Assembly: GCF_000428825.1 (NCBI RefSeq)
Contig: NZ_AUAR01000009.1
Span: 62,001-126,000 of the forward strand
Source of the DNA: Desulfomicrobium escambiense DSM 10707
Lineage (GTDB): Bacteria; Desulfobacterota; Desulfovibrionia; Desulfovibrionales; Desulfomicrobiaceae
DNA length: 64,000 bases
Direction: 5' to 3'
The notes under the pieces were generated by a model. That model was not told the DNA's origin. It worked only from the letters and a program-made list of their open reading frames with translations, and did no database searches. The stretch's first letter is position 1. Every line of letters begins with the position of its first letter. This document shows positions 50,323 to 60,351 of the stretch, in pieces. The translations under genes and the position numbers were made by a program.

Positions 50323-50411
50323 TTATCCGCAATTCCTGGTGAAGCTGTCTGCCGCAAGTCGCCGTGTGCCGGGGTCATCGGAAAGGCCCTCCATGGTGTT
50401 ATCCGCAATTC
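50323..50411. repeat. 13-bp direct repeat pair TTATCCGCAATTC
   Basis: Identical copies at 50323-50335 and 50399-50411, 76 bases apart. The second copy supplies the stop codon of the terminase small subunit gene. Confidence 0.5.
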
Positions 50412-50899
50412 TTTCCGCGTTTCTTGCGGCCGGAGGGTTTCGCGCCCGGGGCGTTTGCGGCCTCGGCCACCTTCTCGAGCAGCGCCGCCGCCCATTCCGC
50501 CGGAGAGGTCTGCGGGCCTTTCGGCTCCTCACCCTCGCGGGCGATCTTGGTGGTTTTGAGGTCCTTCATGTGGCAGCGGATCATCCGGTCGAGCTTTTCG
50601 GCGGCGTCCGTGTTCCCCTCGATCTGGGCGCGGACCAGCTTCACCGAGTAGACGCCCACCAGCTCCACCTGCAGGAAGTCGCTGGACTTGTTGAACTCGA
50701 AGTCCTGGTTGAGGCGGTCGATGATCGCGTCGAACATGACCTTCTCTTCCGGCGTCAGGCAGCGGTCGGCAAAGATGCCGTGACGCAGCCGGTTCTGATT
50801 GCCCTCGGGCGCACCAGGCCCGCGCCGGGGCGGTTCGGTCTTGCCCTCGTTGCGGTGCCAGCGGTCCAGCGTCTCTTTGTCCGGTTTGTTCAGTGCCAC
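50399..50899 (-). CDS. Terminase small subunit-like protein
   Basis: The 166-residue protein contains PRRGPGAPEGNQNRLRHGIF, a motif of phage small terminase-like proteins (PGAPxGNxNxxxHG). A helical core follows (TPEEKVMFDAIIDRLNQDFE; EKLDRMIRCHMKDLKTTKIA) and then a basic tail. It would recognise the packaging site. The start is GTG 50899. The large subunit gene lies 2.8 kb downstream, separated by the recombinase island, so the packaging pair is split. Confidence 0.75.
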   Translation of the reverse strand: MALNKPDKETLDRWHRNEGKTEPPRRGPGAPEGNQNRLRHGIFADRCLTPEEKVMFDAIIDRLNQDFEFNKSSDFLQVELVGVYSVKLVRAQIEGNTDAAEKLDRMIRCHMKDLKTTKIAREGEEPKGPQTSPAEWAAALLEKVAEAANAPGAKPSGRKKRGKNCG

Positions 50900-51272: not shown

Positions 51273-52046
51273 TCAATCCTCCACTTTCTTCATCCACGGC
51301 TGCGGCACGTCCGGGTTGTAGAACCGCAGCGTGCTGGGACGCCCGGACTTCGGCCCGTGGACAATTTCGATAAAACGCTCGGTGACCTCGCCAATCTCCT
51401 GATCGCCATCGACGAAACAGACCAGGCCGTAGTCCTCGCCGCAGGGAAACCGAAACCGGCCCTGGTTCTGATAGAGGCGTGCCTCGGACCAGCTCTTGGC
51501 CATGGCCTCCTCACGGATGGCGTCGACCTTGGCGACAGCCTGGGAAGTTACCGGCTGCTTACATTTCCAAGCTTGGTTCCCGGGATAAATCCAGTCCTTT
51601 CTGGGAACTTCGACGGGTTTCTCCTGGGGTTCGGGACGAAGCGCGGGTGGCCGGTAGTTCTTCGGGGAAAAGGAATGCAGGACCTCCTGCAGGCTTTCCT
51701 TGCCGAACTCCCGGATGGCCAGCTCCTGCAGGGCGTTGAATCGCTGCCGCAGCGTGTTCCAGGCATCCTCGGGGAGCTTTCCGGCCTTGTGCGCGGCTTG
51801 GGCCGTGACCATGCGGGAACGCAGCCAGGCAAAGTATTCAGGCGAAAGCAGACGAAAAACCTTGCCGTTCTGCTCGATGTCGATCTCACCCGTCCGGACC
51901 CAGGCGAACTTCCTGATTTCAAGATCGGTGGTGACGAAAAGGGACTGGCAGTGTTCCGAGGTCTCGGAAACGGCGAGACTGGCTTGGCTGTCGGCTTTGG
52001 GGGCATCCGTGCCGAGGTGACGGATCATGGTGGTCAGCAAGCTCAT
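51273..52046 (-). CDS. Hypothetical phage protein (257 aa), first gene of the late block
   Basis: The product (SEHCQSLFVTTDLEIRKFAW; LSPEYFAWLRSRMVTAQAAH; AWNTLRQRFNALQELAIREF; ARLYQNQGRFRFPCGEDYGL) is not recognised. It has a helical middle and a C-terminal beta part. A 34-bp motif ends 37 bases before its ATG, and a repeat-rich control region lies beyond. It may be a regulator or a packaging helper. Confidence 0.62.
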   Translation of the reverse strand: MSLLTTMIRHLGTDAPKADSQASLAVSETSEHCQSLFVTTDLEIRKFAWVRTGEIDIEQNGKVFRLLSPEYFAWLRSRMVTAQAAHKAGKLPEDAWNTLRQRFNALQELAIREFGKESLQEVLHSFSPKNYRPPALRPEPQEKPVEVPRKDWIYPGNQAWKCKQPVTSQAVAKVDAIREEAMAKSWSEARLYQNQGRFRFPCGEDYGLVCFVDGDQEIGEVTERFIEIVHGPKSGRPSTLRFYNPDVPQPWMKKVED

Positions 52047-52118: not shown

Positions 52119-52432
52119 TGTAGAAAGGGGTTTCTACGTCTCCGCCCCTTTCTACGGTACCTTTCTACAAGCAAAAACAGACTTGTAATCAATAGGTTAT
52201 GATTATGATGGTAGAAAGTGTAGAAAGGTTATGGAGGTTACTTGCCGCACGGGGATTTTTCCCGTGAGCCAGCACCGAGGTCATGGGGCTGAAAAATTCA
52301 TGAGTCAGGGGAAGTGACCCCGGAAACCTTTCTACCCTTTCTACGCTTCCGATGAAAACCGATTGAAACCAATGGGTTGCTGCGTAGAAAGTGGTTCCCG
52401 GGACATTCTACAGCGTAGAAAGGTCTTTCTAC
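52119..52432. repeat. Cluster of GTAGAAAG / CTTTCTAC repeats
   Basis: The octamer occurs about a dozen times in both orientations: GTAGAAA at 52120, 52211, 52220, 52384 and 52415, and the complement at about 52131, 52148, 52161, 52328, 52337 and 52425. Some pairs are tandem (nine bases apart) and some palindromic. Iteron-like; origin or multi-operator region. No gene lies here. Confidence 0.75.
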
Positions 52433-52470
52433 CGGAGGCTGTGCATCCTCCGCCGGATTCCGACGCCTCT

Positions 52471-52669
52471 GTAACTGTATTTCGTAAAAAATGCCTGTTT
52501 GTAATCATATTTTGAGTTGCAAATACGTTTTTTGAGGACCACCCCCCATTTTGACCCCTCACCCAGGCATCCCAAACAATTTTCTTGAAAACTGCTGATA
52601 ATGTAACTATATTTTTAACTCAAAGGCTCATAGTAATCATTTTTTGAGAAACGTAACGATTTTTTGAGG
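52471..52669. repeat. Two triads of GTAAcnATaTTTTGAG-like repeats before the fic gene
   Basis: Copies begin at 52471, 52501, 52521 and again at 52603, 52633, 52653. Both triads have the same internal spacing (30 then 20 bases), the second triad being 132 bases from the first. The region is AT-rich and ends two bases before the fic GTG/ATG. A regulator array or origin AT-rich part is likely. No gene lies between 52047 and 52673. Confidence 0.7.
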
Positions 52670-52673
52670 TGTG

Positions 52674-54182
52674 ATGACATTGGACACGACACAGAACCGG
52701 CTGGCAGGCTATGCGTTTCTGATAGAGCAATTCGACTTGAGAGCTTTGCCGAACTGGCACACGTCCTCAGTCAGCCCGACGGGGACGCTGCGCTCTACTA
52801 TTCAGGATGGGCAGGTGGAATCCGTCTACCCCCAGTCCTATTGGCCCGGAGACGGGACGGGAGACCATCTGGAGTTCGCCCTCAAGTACGACGGCGTGAA
52901 CCTTGGCATCCTGTCGGCCCTTTTCGACGTGGTCCCAGCAGACGAGATAGCGGCCTGGATCAGCTCGAAACCGACCGGGAAATACGCCCGCAGGATCTGG
53001 TTCCTGTATGAATTCCTGACCGGGCGGGAACTCCCGCTGCCGGATTTGACCAAGGGGAATTACATCGAGCTGCTCGAGCCGGACCGTTACTACACCGCAG
53101 CGCCCGGCCGTCGCATGCAGCGTCAGAGAGTCATCGACAATCTGCTTGGCGGGAATGATTTCTGTCCCATCATCCGGCGCACCGAAAAGCTCGCCGCCAT
53201 GGAAGGAATCGACCTGCAGAAACGGTGCGAAGAGGTCGTGACCTCCTATCCACCGGAGCTTCTCAGACGGGCACTAAGCTACCTGTATAACAAAGAGACC
53301 AAGTCCTCATTCGAGATCGAACACATCAAGCCGAGCGCCTCCCGGATAGAGAAATTCATCGGCTTGCTGGAGATGGCCGAGCACAAGGACTTTTGCGAGA
53401 AGCCTCTCCTGATCGACGTGCAGAACCGCATCGTCGATCCCCGATTTCGAGACACGGACTACCGGGCCAACCAGAACTACGTCGGTCAAACTATTTCCTA
53501 TCAGAAGCAGCTCGTTCACTATGTCTGCCCGAAGCCCGACGACCTCCCGGAACTGATGGCGGGACTACTCGCTGCCCATCAAGTGATGAAGGAGGGCGCG
53601 GTCCCCACCATTATCCATGCCGCCGCCATCTCCTACGGATTCGTCTTCATGCATCCCTTTGAGGACGGCAACGGCCGTATTCACCGGTTTCTCATTCACA
53701 ATATCCTGTTTCTGCGCGGCGAGATCCCGAAAGGGCTCATGTTCCCGGTCTCCGCCGCCATGCTGAAAAATCCGGCGCTTTACGATCACTCCCTGGAGGC
53801 GTTCTCAAACCCGCTGATGCGGCTGGTTGAATACGACTTGGACGATCTCGGCCAGATGACCGTGCCGGATGAGACCGGACCTCTGTACAGGTACATCGAC
53901 ATGACCGCTCAGGCGGAGGCGTTGTATGATTTCGTCAAGCTCACCATCGAGCACGAACTGGTGGAAGAACTCGATTTTCTGGCGAGTTACGACAAGACCA
54001 AGCAGGCCATTCAGGAGATCGTGGACATGCCTGACCGCCTCATTGATCTTTTTATCCAGCTCTGCCTGCAAAACAATGGTCGCCTTTCGGCGAGAAAGAG
54101 GGAATCGCATTTCGGGTTTCTGACCGATGACGAGTTGGCCGACATGGAAAATGCCGTCCGGGAAGGATACGCGAGGGACTGA
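52674..54182 (+). CDS. Fic-domain protein
   Basis: The 502-residue protein carries the canonical Fic motif HPFEDGNGRIHRF (about 327-339), predicted to transfer AMP or a similar group to a target hydroxyl. Upstream, SSFEIEHIKPS (near 211-221) matches the class II SxxxE inhibitory pattern, suggesting auto-inhibition. The long N-terminal domain (WPGDGTGDHLEFALKYDGVN) is not recognised. It is on the plus strand, opposite the phage operons, with GAGGTG before the ATG. It may be a moron defence or host-takeover factor; a 49-residue ORF follows. Confidence 0.88.
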   Translation: MTLDTTQNRLAGYAFLIEQFDLRALPNWHTSSVSPTGTLRSTIQDGQVESVYPQSYWPGDGTGDHLEFALKYDGVNLGILSALFDVVPADEIAAWISSKPTGKYARRIWFLYEFLTGRELPLPDLTKGNYIELLEPDRYYTAAPGRRMQRQRVIDNLLGGNDFCPIIRRTEKLAAMEGIDLQKRCEEVVTSYPPELLRRALSYLYNKETKSSFEIEHIKPSASRIEKFIGLLEMAEHKDFCEKPLLIDVQNRIVDPRFRDTDYRANQNYVGQTISYQKQLVHYVCPKPDDLPELMAGLLAAHQVMKEGAVPTIIHAAAISYGFVFMHPFEDGNGRIHRFLIHNILFLRGEIPKGLMFPVSAAMLKNPALYDHSLEAFSNPLMRLVEYDLDDLGQMTVPDETGPLYRYIDMTAQAEALYDFVKLTIEHELVEELDFLASYDKTKQAIQEIVDMPDRLIDLFIQLCLQNNGRLSARKRESHFGFLTDDELADMENAVREGYARD

Positions 54183-54389: not shown

Positions 54390-57300
54390 TCATTCAATGC
54401 GGCGGATCGTGTAGAGTTTTGTGCCGTATCGCTTCTGGCCTATTTCAATCTCGAACCCTGCCCCCCGGATGGTCTCCAGATCATTCACCAGCCGCTGTGC
54501 GAATTGCCGGGATGAGTCCATCTCGAAACGCAGACCGAAATCCCGAGCGACTCGCTTGAGGGCCACGAACAGGTCCCGGGAAAGAACCTCCCGTAAACTT
54601 CCATCGTCTTCAAAGCGGATCTGATACCGCTGGACGAACTCCTGAACCGGGTCCGTCCGGCGGTCTCCGTAAACATCATGCGCATTGGTTTCGGTCGCGG
54701 TGCGCCATGCGTTGAACAGGGTCGCCAGCGCGGTGGCCGTATGGTTTGAATCCCGGGCCGTATCCCGGCTGGTCCGGTTGAGCGACTCGATTTGCCGGGC
54801 GAATGCCGGTGCCAACGCTTCCAGCCCCTGTTCCATCTCTTCACGGCTCGATCCGGCCAGCATCATCAGGTACATCAGGCTGAGATACTCATTGCAGCGG
54901 CGTTTGTCGTGGTTCCCCAGGGCCTCGTGCAACAGCTTCATGGCATGGCGTCTCATGCCGTCTCGCATCATCGCCAGCACCACCCGGGTCCGCTTCATGA
55001 TGACCGAAATGATGAGGTCACGATGCTGCTGGATGCCTGCGACAACCTCGGATTCGATGAAACAGTCATTGCCCTGGTTGGCGACATCGAAATTGATCAC
55101 AAAACTGCGTGACTGAACCTCCGAGAGCTCCCCGCACAGCGGCTCGATGCCGGTGGTGTTCAGCAGGCATTTGGTCCGCTCGGTGATGGTCTCGCTGTCG
55201 GTGCCGCTCTTGCGTTTCTCCTTGGCGATGCCGGTGATGCTGGTCAGCATGAAGGTGGTCAGATCCTCGGTCATCTGCTTGACCTCGATGTTGTCGAGGA
55301 CGATGAGCGGGTTCTGCGAGCCATCGGTGTAGTTCGCCGCGTCGGTGGCTTTCTTGTGCTGGGGCTCGCCGTAAAGCAGCGTCGACGTGATCTTGCTGGC
55401 GGTGGTCTTGCCCGATCCGGCCGAGCCCTCGAAGCGGGTCATGGGCCGCGTCCCGGCGAAGTCGATCAGCAGGAAACAGGAGAGCCAGGAAAGGATGAGA
55501 AAGCGATCTCCCTGCGGACAGGTCATGTTGCCCACCAGCAGATCGACCAGGAGCCGGTCCGCCTCTTCGAGGTCGGCGTCGGGCAGGAATTTCAGCGGCT
55601 TCATCTTCCGCGAGCCATCCAGGATGATGCCGTCCTCGTTACCGCCGTTCTTCATGATCTGAATTTCGTCCGGGGTGATCTTGGCGATCTCGTGCTCCGG
55701 ATTGTTCAGGTTGAAATAGACGGTGTAGGAAGCCACATCCGTATGCAGCCAGGAAAAATGGTCGCGCACCTGGCCACGGATCATGGCCAGGCTGGGCAGC
55801 ACCTCGAAAAATGTCCGTCCGCCGTTGGAGGTCGGCACCATGCCCGTGTGCTTGTAGAGCATGGCCGCGTAATGGCGCTTGCGGCCACGGTCCGGTGAAT
55901 CCATCCAGTAGATGGCGTTATCGAAATACATGAACGGCTCGCCCTGCAGGGTGTGAAAGAACTGGGCACCGTTGGCGGTGAACCAGTCGTAGGCGGCCTC
56001 GGCGGCCAGGGTGTAGTCGGGAGCGCCGTTCTCCAGTTCCGTGTCGATCAGCACCTCGTCGACCCTGGCGCGGCATGATCCGGGCATCGCGCCGGACATC
56101 CGCTTGGCCTTCTTCTTTTCATTACGGAACTCGACCTTGCGGTCCTTCTGGATGGCGCGGATCTGTTCCTTCAGGGTGGCCATGGAGACGCCACCACCGA
56201 TGCGCTCCTGCACCAGCTTCAGCAGGCGGGCCTGTTCCAACGGAGACTGCTCGGAAATCTCCCCCAGTATCGGTTCGAGCAGGCGGTTGCGTTCCTCTTC
56301 CTCAGCGCCCTCTGGCAGCGAGCGCACGCCGAACTCGATGGGCGTGCTGGCCTCGGCGAGCAGGCGTTCGAAATCCTCCCGGGTATGCCCGGCGGCAATG
56401 TAATCGTTGACGTCGATCTTGGCGGTGGCGAGAAGCACCTCGGCCGACTTGATTTCCTCGGCGGGACGTCCCGCCAGCAGCTTGGCCAGCTCCTTCGGCC
56501 CCACGCTCGCCGTCAGGCCGAAGCGTTCGGTCAGCTCCTGCCGGGCCGAGATCTGTGTCTCCGACAAGGGCAGCGTCACCAGGCGGGTGTCGATCTTGTG
56601 TTCGGCCAGGGTGCGGGCGGTTTGCAGCGCCCCCTTGAGACCGGCCTGGGAGAGTTCGTTGTCCTGGCAGATGTAGACGGTTTCGACGCCGCGCAGCTTG
56701 GGGATCAGGCGTTCCCAATCGGCGGCCCGGATGCGAACGGTGACCGGAGATACGGTGGGCAGGCCCAGTTGCATCAGCGCCAGACAATCGGTCACCCCCT
56801 CGGTGATGATCACCTTGCCGGGCCGGGCCAGCAGACAGTCCTCGTTGAACAGCAGCGCGTTGTTGATGAAGTCGGCGACGTAGGGCCGCTGGTGCTCGTC
56901 ATGAACCGGCAGTTTCTTGTATTTCCCTTGCTCCCAGCCCACGTCCGGGGTCCACGGCGTCTTGCGGCCGATCATGAACACCACTCGGCCACGGCTCCAG
57001 TAGGGAAAGACGATGCGGCGCTCGAAAAATGGCGTCAGGCCGTCCTGGCTGGTGGGACGGAAAGCGCCGGTGGCGGCGAGCTCCCGCTTGGAAAAACCGT
57101 CCTCACCCCCGGTCAGTTGGGCGACCGCGCCGGACGCGTTGTCCGCGTAGCCGATCAGGAGATCGTCGATGGTCTCCTCGCTAAGGGCGTATTTGGATTT
57201 CAGCCAGTCGAGGACCTCCGACGACTCCTTCAGCCTGGCGTGGTAAAGCCTGGCCAGCGAGGTCAGCGCGTCCTTGACCCGCAGTTCGAAGGTACGGTCG

Positions 57301-57692
57301 GCCTCCGTCTGGGCCAGACGCTCCTGGCTCAGGCCATAGCGCGACAGCGGCGGCAAGCCCGCCTTTTTGGCGAGATAGTCCCGGGCCTGACGGTGGCTGT
57401 CCGTCATCGGACCGGATTGCCCGGCGGTGACCGAGCCCGTCTGAATGAACTCAACGAGCTGCAGCACATCACCGCCGGCTCCGCAGCCGAAGCAGTACCA
57501 GCCCTGCTTGTCGAGCATCACGTGCAGCGACAGGCGCGACTGGCTCTGATGGTTGGGGCAGTCGCACATCAAGCGCTGGCCGGTCTCCTGGGTGATCCGT
57601 CCCGGCAGGAGTTCCCGGGCCACGTCACCGATGTCCATCTCGGTGACGAGCCGGTAATACTCCCTGACGTTATCCGTTCCGCCCATACTCAT
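54390..57692 (-). CDS. Phage primase-helicase (CHC2 zinc finger, Toprim, AAA ATPase)
   Basis: The 1100-residue protein starts with a DnaG-type zinc finger (CDCPNHQSQ with WYCFGCGAGGDV, residues 43-75). A Toprim part follows (KVIITEGVTDCLALMQLGLP; VETVYICQDNELSQAGLKG). The C-terminal third holds an AAA/helicase motor with the P-loop GSAGSGKTTASK (about 755-765) and LIVLDNIEVKQMTEDLTT. It makes primers and unwinds DNA in replication. Start ATG 57692 overlaps the RecD-like stop as ATGA. Confidence 0.88.
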   Translation of the reverse strand: MSMGGTDNVREYYRLVTEMDIGDVARELLPGRITQETGQRLMCDCPNHQSQSRLSLHVMLDKQGWYCFGCGAGGDVLQLVEFIQTGSVTAGQSGPMTDSHRQARDYLAKKAGLPPLSRYGLSQERLAQTEADRTFELRVKDALTSLARLYHARLKESSEVLDWLKSKYALSEETIDDLLIGYADNASGAVAQLTGGEDGFSKRELAATGAFRPTSQDGLTPFFERRIVFPYWSRGRVVFMIGRKTPWTPDVGWEQGKYKKLPVHDEHQRPYVADFINNALLFNEDCLLARPGKVIITEGVTDCLALMQLGLPTVSPVTVRIRAADWERLIPKLRGVETVYICQDNELSQAGLKGALQTARTLAEHKIDTRLVTLPLSETQISARQELTERFGLTASVGPKELAKLLAGRPAEEIKSAEVLLATAKIDVNDYIAAGHTREDFERLLAEASTPIEFGVRSLPEGAEEEERNRLLEPILGEISEQSPLEQARLLKLVQERIGGGVSMATLKEQIRAIQKDRKVEFRNEKKKAKRMSGAMPGSCRARVDEVLIDTELENGAPDYTLAAEAAYDWFTANGAQFFHTLQGEPFMYFDNAIYWMDSPDRGRKRHYAAMLYKHTGMVPTSNGGRTFFEVLPSLAMIRGQVRDHFSWLHTDVASYTVYFNLNNPEHEIAKITPDEIQIMKNGGNEDGIILDGSRKMKPLKFLPDADLEEADRLLVDLLVGNMTCPQGDRFLILSWLSCFLLIDFAGTRPMTRFEGSAGSGKTTASKITSTLLYGEPQHKKATDAANYTDGSQNPLIVLDNIEVKQMTEDLTTFMLTSITGIAKEKRKSGTDSETITERTKCLLNTTGIEPLCGELSEVQSRSFVINFDVANQGNDCFIESEVVAGIQQHRDLIISVIMKRTRVVLAMMRDGMRRHAMKLLHEALGNHDKRRCNEYLSLMYLMMLAGSSREEMEQGLEALAPAFARQIESLNRTSRDTARDSNHTATALATLFNAWRTATETNAHDVYGDRRTDPVQEFVQRYQIRFEDDGSLREVLSRDLFVALKRVARDFGLRFEMDSSRQFAQRLVNDLETIRGAGFEIEIGQKRYGTKLYTIRRIE

Positions 57693-59917
57693 TCGGCCTC
57701 CGCGACACGGGCGAAATCGGCATCCGCGTGCTGGGCGGCGTCCAGAAACAGGGGCAAAAAGGTCCGGCGGTCATCCACCTGGCAACGCTTGGCGCAGTTC
57801 TGGATGCCCCAATGGTCACCCAGGACAATGGCGGTGCGCCGGGCACGAGTCACCCCGGTGTAGAGCAGATTGCGGTGGTGCATGAAGGAATGCGCCTTGT
57901 GGACCACCAACACGGCGCAGGGGAACTCGGAGCCCTGGGTTTTGTGGATGGTGAGCGCATAGGCGAGCTGCAGGTCCTGAAGGTCGGGCGAACCCTTCTC
58001 CAGCTCCACCGGCATGCCGTCGAAGTCGATGACCAAGGTGCCGTTCGCGAGGACATCGACCACATAGCCGATGGCACCGTTCATCACGTTCAGGTCGTAA
58101 TTGTTCCGGGTCTGGATGACCTTGTCGTGCTTGAGAAACGGGGCGCGGCGTCCCATGGCGACCGGCGGCACCTCGGTGTTCCAGAGTTTGCGCTGGATGA
58201 GCCGCTGCAATTCCTCGTTCAGTTCCTTGGTGCCGAGCGGCCCCTTGTGGGTCGGCGTCAGCACCTGCACGTCCTTGATGATGTCGAACCCCAGGGCGTC
58301 GAGCCGCTCCTGAAACAGCTCCAGCAGGAACGAGCGTGCAGCCATCGGGTCGGTGAACTGATCCACCAGATACCAATCCCGGCATCCGGCCACCGACGCC
58401 TCGCTGGTCTTGCGCACCTCGCCCTTGAGAACGGCGGTGCAGTTCTCCTTGAGGACGCCAGCCTGGCGCACGACCTTGTCGAGGATGACCGTGGGGATGG
58501 CGCGTGTCTGAATCAGATCGCGCAGGATGTTTCCGGGTCCCACCGGCGGAAGCTGGTTGTGATCGCCGACCAGCAGCACCGTGGTCCGCGACAGGTCGAC
58601 CGCCTCGAACAGATGCCAGGCCAGCGGCACGTCGACCATCGAAAACTCGTCGACCACCAGGACGTCGGCATCGATGGGGTTCTCCTTGCTGCGGGAGAAG
58701 CCCTTGCCGTCATAGCCGAGCAGACGGTGAATGGTGGTGCCGCTGCGACCGCTGACTTCCTCCAGACGCTTGGCCGCCTTACCGGTCGGCGCGGCGAGCA
58801 CGACCTCCAGATCACTCTCCTCGCAGATGGTGTTGATGACCGAGATGGTGTAGCTCTTGCCAGAACCGGCTCCACCCGAGATCAAGCTGATGCTGTGCTT
58901 GAGTGCCGAGCGCACAGCTTCAAGCTGCTTCTCGTTCAGCGTCACCGCGCAGCGCCGAATCAGGGCGTCGAGTTTCTTGACGGACTGGAAATGAGGATTG
59001 GGTGTTTCGGCCTGGCCGAACAGCGAGGCCAGCTCCCGCTCCATACGGACGATCTCCGGCAGGGCGACTACAAAACGTCCGCCGTGGGAATCGCAGGCAA
59101 GCGCCTGTTCTTCGATGAGCACGTCGAGGGCGCTCTCGATGCGAACCCGGCTGTCCAGGGCATCCATGACCAGCAGCAGGTTGGCCTGGTCCACCAGATC
59201 CTCGTATTCGATCCAGCAGTGGCCATTGTCCAGGGCTTCACGGACGCAGAAATTCAACCCGGCCCGGATACGAGGGTTATGGTCCTTGGGGGTTCCCAGC
59301 TTGCGGGCGATCTTGTCGACCTTCTTGAAGCCGAATCCCCGGATCTCCCGAATGAGGATGTACGGGTCTTCCTTCAGGATATCGAGGCAGTTGCCGCCGA
59401 GTCTTTCGACCAGAGTGGTGACCTGATGATGGGTCAGACCGAATGCCGACAACCAGGCCATGACGGCGTTGACGCTGCGGTTCTTCAACCATTCGTCACG
59501 CAGCCGCCGGGCAGCATCCAAGGGCAGTCGGGCCTTGAGCGCAATGCGCTCGGGGTCGTTCAGAAGGGTTTTTTCAAAGGCGTCGCCGAAACTCTCGACG
59601 ATCAATCTGGCCTTGGCCGGACCAATGCCCTTGATCTCCGGATGGTTAGCCAGATAGTGGATCAGCCCCTCCGGGTCGAGTTCGAGGTCGTGCTCCATCC
59701 CGTCGACCTTGAACTGACGGCCGTATTTGGGATGGGTGGACCACGACCCGAGCAGGACCACAGGCTGATTTTCACGGGCGAACAAATTGCCCGCGAACTG
59801 GACTTCCTCACCGGTCGGGGTGAGCAGTCGGCCTGCGGAGAACTTGGGTCCGGCATAGTAAACGCGCTCTATTCTTCCCCGGAGTCGCGCCGGGTTACTC
59901 TCATTTCTTTTTGGCAT
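57689..59917 (-). CDS. RecD2-like SF1 helicase
   Basis: The 742-residue protein has RecD2-type features. The N-terminal part is RLRGRIERVYYAGPKFSAGR, with helix-hairpin-helix segments (HPEIKGIGPAKARLIVESFG; REIRGFGFKKVDKIARKLG). The motor follows: ISLISGGAGSGKSYTISVI (P-loop near 350), APTGKAAKRLEEVSG, VLVVDEFSMVD, LLVGDHNQLPPVGPGN and AYALTIHKTQGSEFPCAVLV, with GVTRARRTAIVLGD. It unwinds DNA 5'-3' in repair or replication. ATG 59917 follows GGAGG; a longer start is not supported. Confidence 0.9.
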   Translation of the reverse strand: MPKRNESNPARLRGRIERVYYAGPKFSAGRLLTPTGEEVQFAGNLFARENQPVVLLGSWSTHPKYGRQFKVDGMEHDLELDPEGLIHYLANHPEIKGIGPAKARLIVESFGDAFEKTLLNDPERIALKARLPLDAARRLRDEWLKNRSVNAVMAWLSAFGLTHHQVTTLVERLGGNCLDILKEDPYILIREIRGFGFKKVDKIARKLGTPKDHNPRIRAGLNFCVREALDNGHCWIEYEDLVDQANLLLVMDALDSRVRIESALDVLIEEQALACDSHGGRFVVALPEIVRMERELASLFGQAETPNPHFQSVKKLDALIRRCAVTLNEKQLEAVRSALKHSISLISGGAGSGKSYTISVINTICEESDLEVVLAAPTGKAAKRLEEVSGRSGTTIHRLLGYDGKGFSRSKENPIDADVLVVDEFSMVDVPLAWHLFEAVDLSRTTVLLVGDHNQLPPVGPGNILRDLIQTRAIPTVILDKVVRQAGVLKENCTAVLKGEVRKTSEASVAGCRDWYLVDQFTDPMAARSFLLELFQERLDALGFDIIKDVQVLTPTHKGPLGTKELNEELQRLIQRKLWNTEVPPVAMGRRAPFLKHDKVIQTRNNYDLNVMNGAIGYVVDVLANGTLVIDFDGMPVELEKGSPDLQDLQLAYALTIHKTQGSEFPCAVLVVHKAHSFMHHRNLLYTGVTRARRTAIVLGDHWGIQNCAKRCQVDDRRTFLPLFLDAAQHADADFARVAEAE

Positions 59918-60351
59918 CTCGCGATCCTCCGGTGAAAACGTGTCAGGTACTCCTCGACAAAACGGCAGGCGGCCTGCCGGTCCGAGCAGAAGTAGACGGG
60001 GACACCGAAGTCGACGACGATGGAGGCGACCGTTCCAATCAGCGCATGCGGGTGGGCATCGCTGCGGTAGCGGCCATCGACCAGATCGCGAAAGTTGCAC
60101 TCGACAACCACGCAGGCGGATTCGTAGGCGGAGAGCTTTTCCAGCTCGCGGTGGAACCGCTTTCGCCCCCGGATGACGGTGGAGACGAAATCCGTCAGGG
60201 ATTTGCGCTCCACCGCCACCCGTTCCTCGAGGCCGACCAGCGAGTAATCACCGGCGGGCAGCGCCTTGCGAACCGCCGAAACCTTGTCGCTATCGAAGCT
60301 GTAGGGCTCCTGTTCGCGGGTGTCGACGACAACGGTGATCCGGTCCATCAT
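59869..60351 (-). CDS. ERCC4/XPF-type nuclease
   Basis: The 160-residue protein carries the XPF/ERCC4 motif GDX(n)ERKX3D: VVVDTREQEPYSFDSD, ALPAGDYSLVGLEERVAVER and KSLTDFVSTVIRGRKRFHRE, the last giving the ERK...D site. XPF-type nucleases cut branched DNA. A lone domain of this size is typical of phages, which pair it with helicases. Its 3' end overlaps the RecD-like start by 49 bases. Start at ATG 60351 overlaps the DUF669 stop (TGATG). Confidence 0.9.
   Translation of the reverse strand: MMDRITVVVDTREQEPYSFDSDKVSAVRKALPAGDYSLVGLEERVAVERKSLTDFVSTVIRGRKRFHRELEKLSAYESACVVVECNFRDLVDGRYRSDAHPHALIGTVASIVVDFGVPVYFCSDRQAACRFVEEYLTRFHRRIARCQKEMRVTRRDSGEE

Follow-up and report, generated by a model that had tools for sequence, protein, structure and literature searches.

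An octamer array as the probable replication origin of a Desulfomicrobium prophage, with a word that differs among relatives together with a primase winged helix

In this study, we explore a prophage of Desulfomicrobium escambiense DSM 10707 carried on a 64,000-nucleotide stretch of its genome (assembly GCF_000428825.1, contig NZ_AUAR01000009.1, positions 62,001 to 126,000; hereafter the window, whose own coordinates are used throughout), focusing on a cluster of octamer repeats near the gene for a 1100-residue primase-helicase. On the strength of sequence comparison, we hold with high confidence that this cluster is the replication origin of the prophage and that its octamers are bound by the C-terminal winged helix of the primase-helicase. 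The array is conserved in relatives, is linked to the primase gene, and changes its word together with the end of the primase; by analogy with known initiators, we infer direct binding, melting, helicase loading and origin function.

The initial annotation had described a dense cluster of tandem and inverted repeats, which is real and was placed correctly to within one base. Ten exact copies of GTAGAAAG/CTTTCTAC lie at 52120-52432, five per strand, and none occurs elsewhere in the 64 kb, where whole-window dinucleotide shuffles give a mean of 0.34 and a maximum of 2. Two sites with one mismatch, near 52130 and 52404 (both on the minus strand), bring the array to 12 sites in 313 bp. The tandem 9-bp pair of GTAGAAAG is found once per strand, both times in the array and nowhere else in the 3.78-Mb genome; the two pairs, each with a 9-bp period, face inward across ~100 bp, with further sites flanking both on the outside. 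The array and its parts are as follows:

52120-52432, both strands: iteron array, called from the repeat count and from the same geometry with other words in relatives
GTAGAAAG sites, left part: 52120+, ~52130- (1 mismatch), 52148-, 52161-, 52211+, 52220+
GTAGAAAG sites, right part: 52328-, 52337-, 52384+, ~52404- (1 mismatch), 52415+, 52425-
Start-to-start distances read on the plus strand: >10<18<13<50>9>108<9<47>20<11>10<
52169-52210: AT-rich spacer of 42 bp inside the array, candidate DNA-unwinding element, 71% AT versus 39% in the locus
52228-52327: central spacer of ~100 bp separating the tandem pairs that face inward; next to the right pair it carries a short conserved stretch, GGGGaAGTgAcCcCgGAAACC

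AT-rich DNA next to the repeats had also been pointed out, which holds for the 42-bp spacer inside the array, whereas the stretch after 52470 is the upstream region of a neighboring Fic gene. The AT-rich DNA at 52.47-52.67 kb was accordingly dropped as an unwinding element, since it belongs to the Fic gene and relatives have other DNA in its place.

Relatives were collected first through a conserved 257-residue protein encoded beside the array and then through the primase, with 80 kept of 113 primase candidates, and words were called by an automatic count of enriched words 3' of the primase gene. Among the loci reached through the 257-residue protein (loci are numbered L, genomes G), L002, L006 and L007 carry GTAGAAAG arrays, and others show TGCGGTGG at the same place. 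The search for the octamer in relatives proposed by the initial annotation found the array kept 3' of the same primase in dozens of loci, often with a different word. Altogether, 67 arrays fall into eight word classes, each array 3' of the same primase-helicase gene: GTAGAAAG (21 arrays), TGCGGTGG (21), TGCGAAGG (10), GCCGAAAG (7), GGTGAAAGG (4), (G)GCGGGTG (2), TGAGAAGG (1) and TGCGGAGG (1). Many of these 67 loci are near-duplicates (28-29 representatives at 97% identity of the primase N-terminus) and many come from metagenome bins, the word classes with one or two members being weakly supported. Repeat clusters built on further words also lie close to the 3' end of more distant primase genes, those of Acidobacteria and of two archaeal bins.

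The layout is kept while the word changes. Arrays of GTAGAAAG, GCCGAAAG, TGCGAAGG and GGTGAAAGG share a common spacing, with most sites within a few bases, and those of TGCGGTGG and GCGGGTG follow a second layout with the same core, namely a tandem pair, ~117 bp, an inverted tandem pair, ~45 bp and the next site. Sites match in both position and orientation at 11 of 12 places between the window and L060 and at 10 of 12 between L061 and L100, against null maxima of 5. Furthermore, the spacer that separates the left sites from the first tandem pair, ~40-62 bp long, is 65-88% AT in all nine arrays measured, in loci of 38-48% AT. Its composition and constant position make it a natural candidate for the melting site.

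Within the primase-helicase, the following features bear on how the word would be read:

54390-57692, minus strand: primase-helicase of 1100 residues, proposed initiator, with CHC2 zinc finger, DnaG-type core, Toprim, P-loop ATPase and C-terminal winged helix
54399-54596, minus strand: predicted winged-helix domain (codons 1033-1098), proposed to bind iterons, from AlphaFold2 and word tracking
54483-54515, minus strand: presumed recognition helix SSRQFAQRLVN (codons 1060-1070), with top tracking columns 1060-1062 and 1064-1066
54420-54434, minus strand: wing KRYGT (codons 1087-1091), in which KRY becomes NHR where the word becomes GCCGAAAG

Pfam recognizes the zinc finger, the DnaG core and Toprim, and the helicase part is marked by a P-loop motif and a weak AAA match. 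AlphaFold2 predicts the last 135 residues with a mean predicted local distance difference test (pLDDT) score of 86, exceeding 90 across most of the winged-helix domain, as a strand, three helices (73-87, 96-105 and 107-112), a two-stranded wing and further helices.

It is this tail that follows the word. Primases of the TGCGGTGG group are ~98-100% identical to that of the window in most bins up to residue 850 and 35-78% identical thereafter, and L017-type primases are 80% identical overall, yet keep both word and tail. A column test over seven proteins (six plus the 257-residue protein), contrasting 15 close pairs that differ in word with 32 distant pairs that share one, placed all 31 best word-tracking columns in primase residues 860-1093, including 1060-1062 and 1064-1066 in the helix and 1090 and 1092 in the wing. 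The correlation of word distance with primase distance rises from r 0.19 for residues 1-400 to 0.66 for residues 1056-1099 (partial 0.65 given residues 1-800). We conclude from this co-change that the word is probably read by the last ~45-100 primase residues, the predicted winged helix. Of the two nearby replication genes that the initial annotation had linked to the repeats, the primase-helicase therefore stands by virtue of its tail, and the RecD2-like helicase, without word tracking (partial r -0.24), was rejected as word reader. The suggestion of an iteron-type origin served by a nearby primase-helicase is strongly supported by array conservation and by the joint change of word and winged helix across relatives.

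Natural swaps add evidence independent of the correlation permutations, whose correction for shared ancestry is incomplete. The primases of L060 and L077 are >97% identical to that of the window, with 29 and 31 differences in 1100 residues, of which 7 and 8, respectively, fall in the last 30 (p 1e-5 and 1e-6). Here, the wing KRY has become NHR, and GTA in the word has become GCC at nearly all sites with GAAAG unchanged, one leftover GTAGAAAG site remaining in each locus; L059, a same-word control, has zero differences in the last 30 residues. Another example is provided by L089 and L099 (both contigs from metagenome bins), whose primases differ at 35 residues, 18 of them among the last 30 (p 2e-19), while the word passes from GGTGAAAGG to TGAGAAGG. 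Their DNA is ~98% identical until a break within the wing codons and becomes homologous again (94%) from the first iteron onward, so that wing, array and the gene slot between them form an exchanged block; on the side of the 257-residue protein, the DNA is 92-99% identical despite the different words.

Across the relatives, helix and wing can be provisionally paired with half-words. SSRQFAQR with KRYGT accompanies GTA-GAAAG, and with NHRGT, NRNGT, DHKGR or DCHGT it accompanies (G/A)CC-GAAAG; SVQQFAQR with a short ..RTY wing goes with GGT-GAAAGG, and with a long ..TATY wing with TGC or TGA-GAAGG; PAQLGRR with NFEY pairs with TGC-GGTGG, and PAQLGKR with SWQY with GC-GGGTG. These pairs, amounting to at most about a dozen independent cases, suggest that the right half-word is read by the helix and the left half by the wing.

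The closest functional parallels are two well-described initiators. In P4 alpha, a zinc-finger/Toprim primase is fused to a helicase, and its C-terminal winged helix binds octamers (PMC4234260). Immediately 3' of the alpha gene comes the P4 crr element, which has a 9-bp tandem pair and 18-bp inverted spacing, a striking parallel to the window array. However, the P4 word is TGTTCACC, and P4 distributes its sites over crr and a remote ori that has type 2 repeats, whereas the window phage has one cluster only (in the window) and one tandem-pair place (in the genome), with no ori/crr split. Moreover, hhalign found no match between the C-terminal profile and P4 alpha, leaving a sequence relation of the binding domains undetected, and P4 alpha (1KA8) was not among the matches listed in fold searches. 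In the Rep protein of Staphylococcus aureus pathogenicity islands (SaPI), and in Cch2 of the staphylococcal cassette chromosome SCCmec, the C-terminal domain of a self-loading helicase recognizes iterons directly downstream of its own gene, as related in PMC7581432, which cites Ubeda 2007. Iterons likewise lie 3' of the initiator gene in the present relatives, with Fic cargo intervening in the window, but primase and helicase belong to other families, and Pfam found neither a DUF927 nor a D5-type domain (the SaPI Rep types) in the primase. We propose by analogy that array and primase work like P4 or SaPI, without filing them as a member of either.

The mechanism we envisage is modeled on P4 alpha and SaPI Rep (PMC4234260, PMC7581432). 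The primase tail would bind octamers on the two inward-facing halves, and the bound primase-helicase would assemble into helicase rings on the array; the internal AT-rich spacer would then be opened and the helicase loaded, with the primase-helicase itself priming DNA synthesis. Octamer choice would be set by the recognition helix, mainly for the GAAAG half, and by the wing, mainly for the first three bases. Joint exchange or alteration of the wing or domain and the origin would keep the geometry and give a new word. The array may additionally be bound for autoregulation.

The setting of the array is a prophage in which portal, terminase, the 257-residue protein, the array, the Fic gene and the primase are followed by the RecD2-like helicase, an ERCC4-type nuclease, a Sak4-like protein and an exonuclease. 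The neighboring features are:

50399-50899: TerS, the small terminase, just past the 257-residue protein gene and ~1.2 kb from the array
51273-52046, minus strand: conserved 257-residue protein, function unassigned, divergent from the array, tested as a rival binder
52470-52669, plus strand: further set of repeats, GTAAnnnTTTTTTGAG, preceding the Fic gene and outside the origin array
52671-54182, plus strand: Fic-domain protein, cargo between primase and array, matching candidate defence family PDC-S24 and absent from most relatives
57689-60100, minus strand: RecD2-like helicase, upstream of the primase

Several observations weigh against the origin reading. In the more distant word classes, only 5-7 sites match, against null maxima of 5-6, which is marginal. 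GC skew, a check suggested by the initial annotation, has no inflection at the array and is uninformative as an origin test. The helicase/P-loop ATPase region of the full-length AlphaFold model is poorly modeled and unusable. The winged-helix sequence profile matched none of the solved structures, and hence no solved initiator, and Foldseek with the domain returned nothing below E 0.001 from PDB or viral libraries. A second look with VIA was weak (Z 4.5-4.7), its top rows being RepE-iteron complexes among unrelated winged helices; such matches to a predicted model fit iteron binding, and prove nothing. Finally, the N-terminus of the 257-residue protein also changes with the word (partial r 0.24 for residues 1-60), and its gene always, or in almost all relatives, adjoins the array in the main clade.

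These last points bear on an alternative, also raised in the initial annotation, that the array is an operator of the divergent 257-residue gene or late operon and of the Fic side, bound by the 257-residue protein or by a repressor. The array does sit between divergent genes, and the first 60 residues of the 257-residue protein change with the word (D 0.62 for residues 1-50). However, distant phages with the same word do not retain this N-terminal part (S 0.32), and the divergence fades away from the array, as hitch-hiking would give. Residues 61-250 show no word tracking (partial r -0.07), the protein has no Pfam, PHROG or PADLOC family match and no match to a DNA-binding family, and L105 and L149 have arrays where no homologue of it was found. 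Given the untracked residues and the near-identical L089/L099 DNA on its side of the array, the 257-residue protein was rejected as word reader; operator function gained no separate support and appears very improbable. Alternatively, the array could be a partition/incompatibility or origin-adjacent copy-control site, bound by the primase without being the start point, as in a P4 crr without ori. P4 does combine an ori with a distant crr, the latter being the element 3' of alpha, but here the window holds no second word cluster and the genome no second tandem pair, so that a separate ori built on these iterons was not seen, and the array contains its own AT-rich spacer, making this option very improbable. 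A packaging site (pac/cos) read by TerS ~1.2 kb away is suggested by the place of that gene just beyond the 257-residue gene and is extremely improbable, since TerS shows no tracking of the word (partial r -0.08), and its copies from different word classes of the close clade are ~87-100% identical; TerS was likewise rejected as word reader.

Returning to the array as origin, we propose more tentatively, with rather less than even confidence, that the wing, the slot with its cargo and the origin are exchanged as a single cassette that sets specificity. In it, a few wing residues and about a dozen sites would switch the word, perhaps as a way around cross-initiation, parasitic satellites or origin-directed nucleases; defence or toxin cargo would co-travel, and the pairs of helix or wing with half-words would make up a simple recognition code. 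In the window, 1.5 kb of Fic cargo separates primase from array, whereas nothing lies between them in L017, L060 and L084. Across the relatives, the slot is empty or holds Fic, an AbiL/AriA-like ATPase pair, ParE-Phd, AbiEii, a PLD nuclease with HNH, an ABC-F-like ATPase or GNAT (cargo loci compared: the window at 52671-54182, L061, L062, L099, L029, L078 and L028). In L006 and L007, the Fic protein is 66% identical to that of the window, and the repeats upstream of its gene read GTAAnnATTTTGCCAG where the window has GTAAnnnTTTTTTGAG. Here, too, a repeat word may have been replaced, perhaps one that serves Fic autoregulation.

Further observations concern the spread of the family. Near-identical primase modules occur in distant hosts (L075, L076 and L081), with identities of 100% in Desulfofustis and 98% in Desulfobulbus, and 89% overall (RecD2 98%) in Ectothiorhodospira, which suggests recent wide phage spread. 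The Desulfofustis glycolicus strain DSM 9705, a close relative, has a primase 100% identical to that of the window. Among deposited phage records, a nucleotide search with the array region gave chance matches only, and primase searches of deposited phages and plasmids gave distant primase-domain matches only, the best being a Desulfocapsa plasmid at 27%. Four genomes hold two such prophages with two different words: G231 (L064/L065), Desulfobulbus rhabdoformis (L076/L088), Desulfosarcina alkanivorans (L084/L090) and G106 (L072/L073); in G114, both prophages have the same word. This ratio (4 versus 1) hints at incompatibility, being too small for a test. In L073 (G106:C56), the array is present and the primase frame keeps 98% identity as far as residue 727 before running into unrelated sequence, probably owing to a frameshift or assembly error.

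The principle of a covarying initiator domain and origin is already known from PLE satellites (PMC8263062) and geminiviruses (PMC2974675). In the Vibrio PLE RepA_N/ori system, swap tests show cognate specificity (PMC8263062), but RepA_N, which is no primase-helicase, binds through its N-terminal domain, and that system has two described replicon types versus at least eight words here. In geminivirus Rep, a rolling-circle initiator of unrelated fold from plant viruses, a different iteron core goes along with changes at few residues, and the origin and the specificity segment are exchanged together by recombination (PMC2974675). Our literature search, largely outside subscription journals, returned no report of the present origin family; within that literature, the phage family, the number of words, the wing-only changes with the layout kept, and the slot for defence or toxin cargo look new. 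In the Vibrio PLE system, an origin-directed nuclease selects for a changed origin.

Initiator-origin pairs are usually known singly. The present family offers at least eight natural origin words for a single protein family on an almost invariant scaffold, and among its members are proteins >97% identical with differing words. This opens two testable questions, namely how initiator specificity can change although a dozen sites stand to be lost at the same time, and which winged-helix residues read which bases. The family would also supply a panel of phage replicons distinct from one another, and it makes the defence-gene slot a physical part of the replication module.
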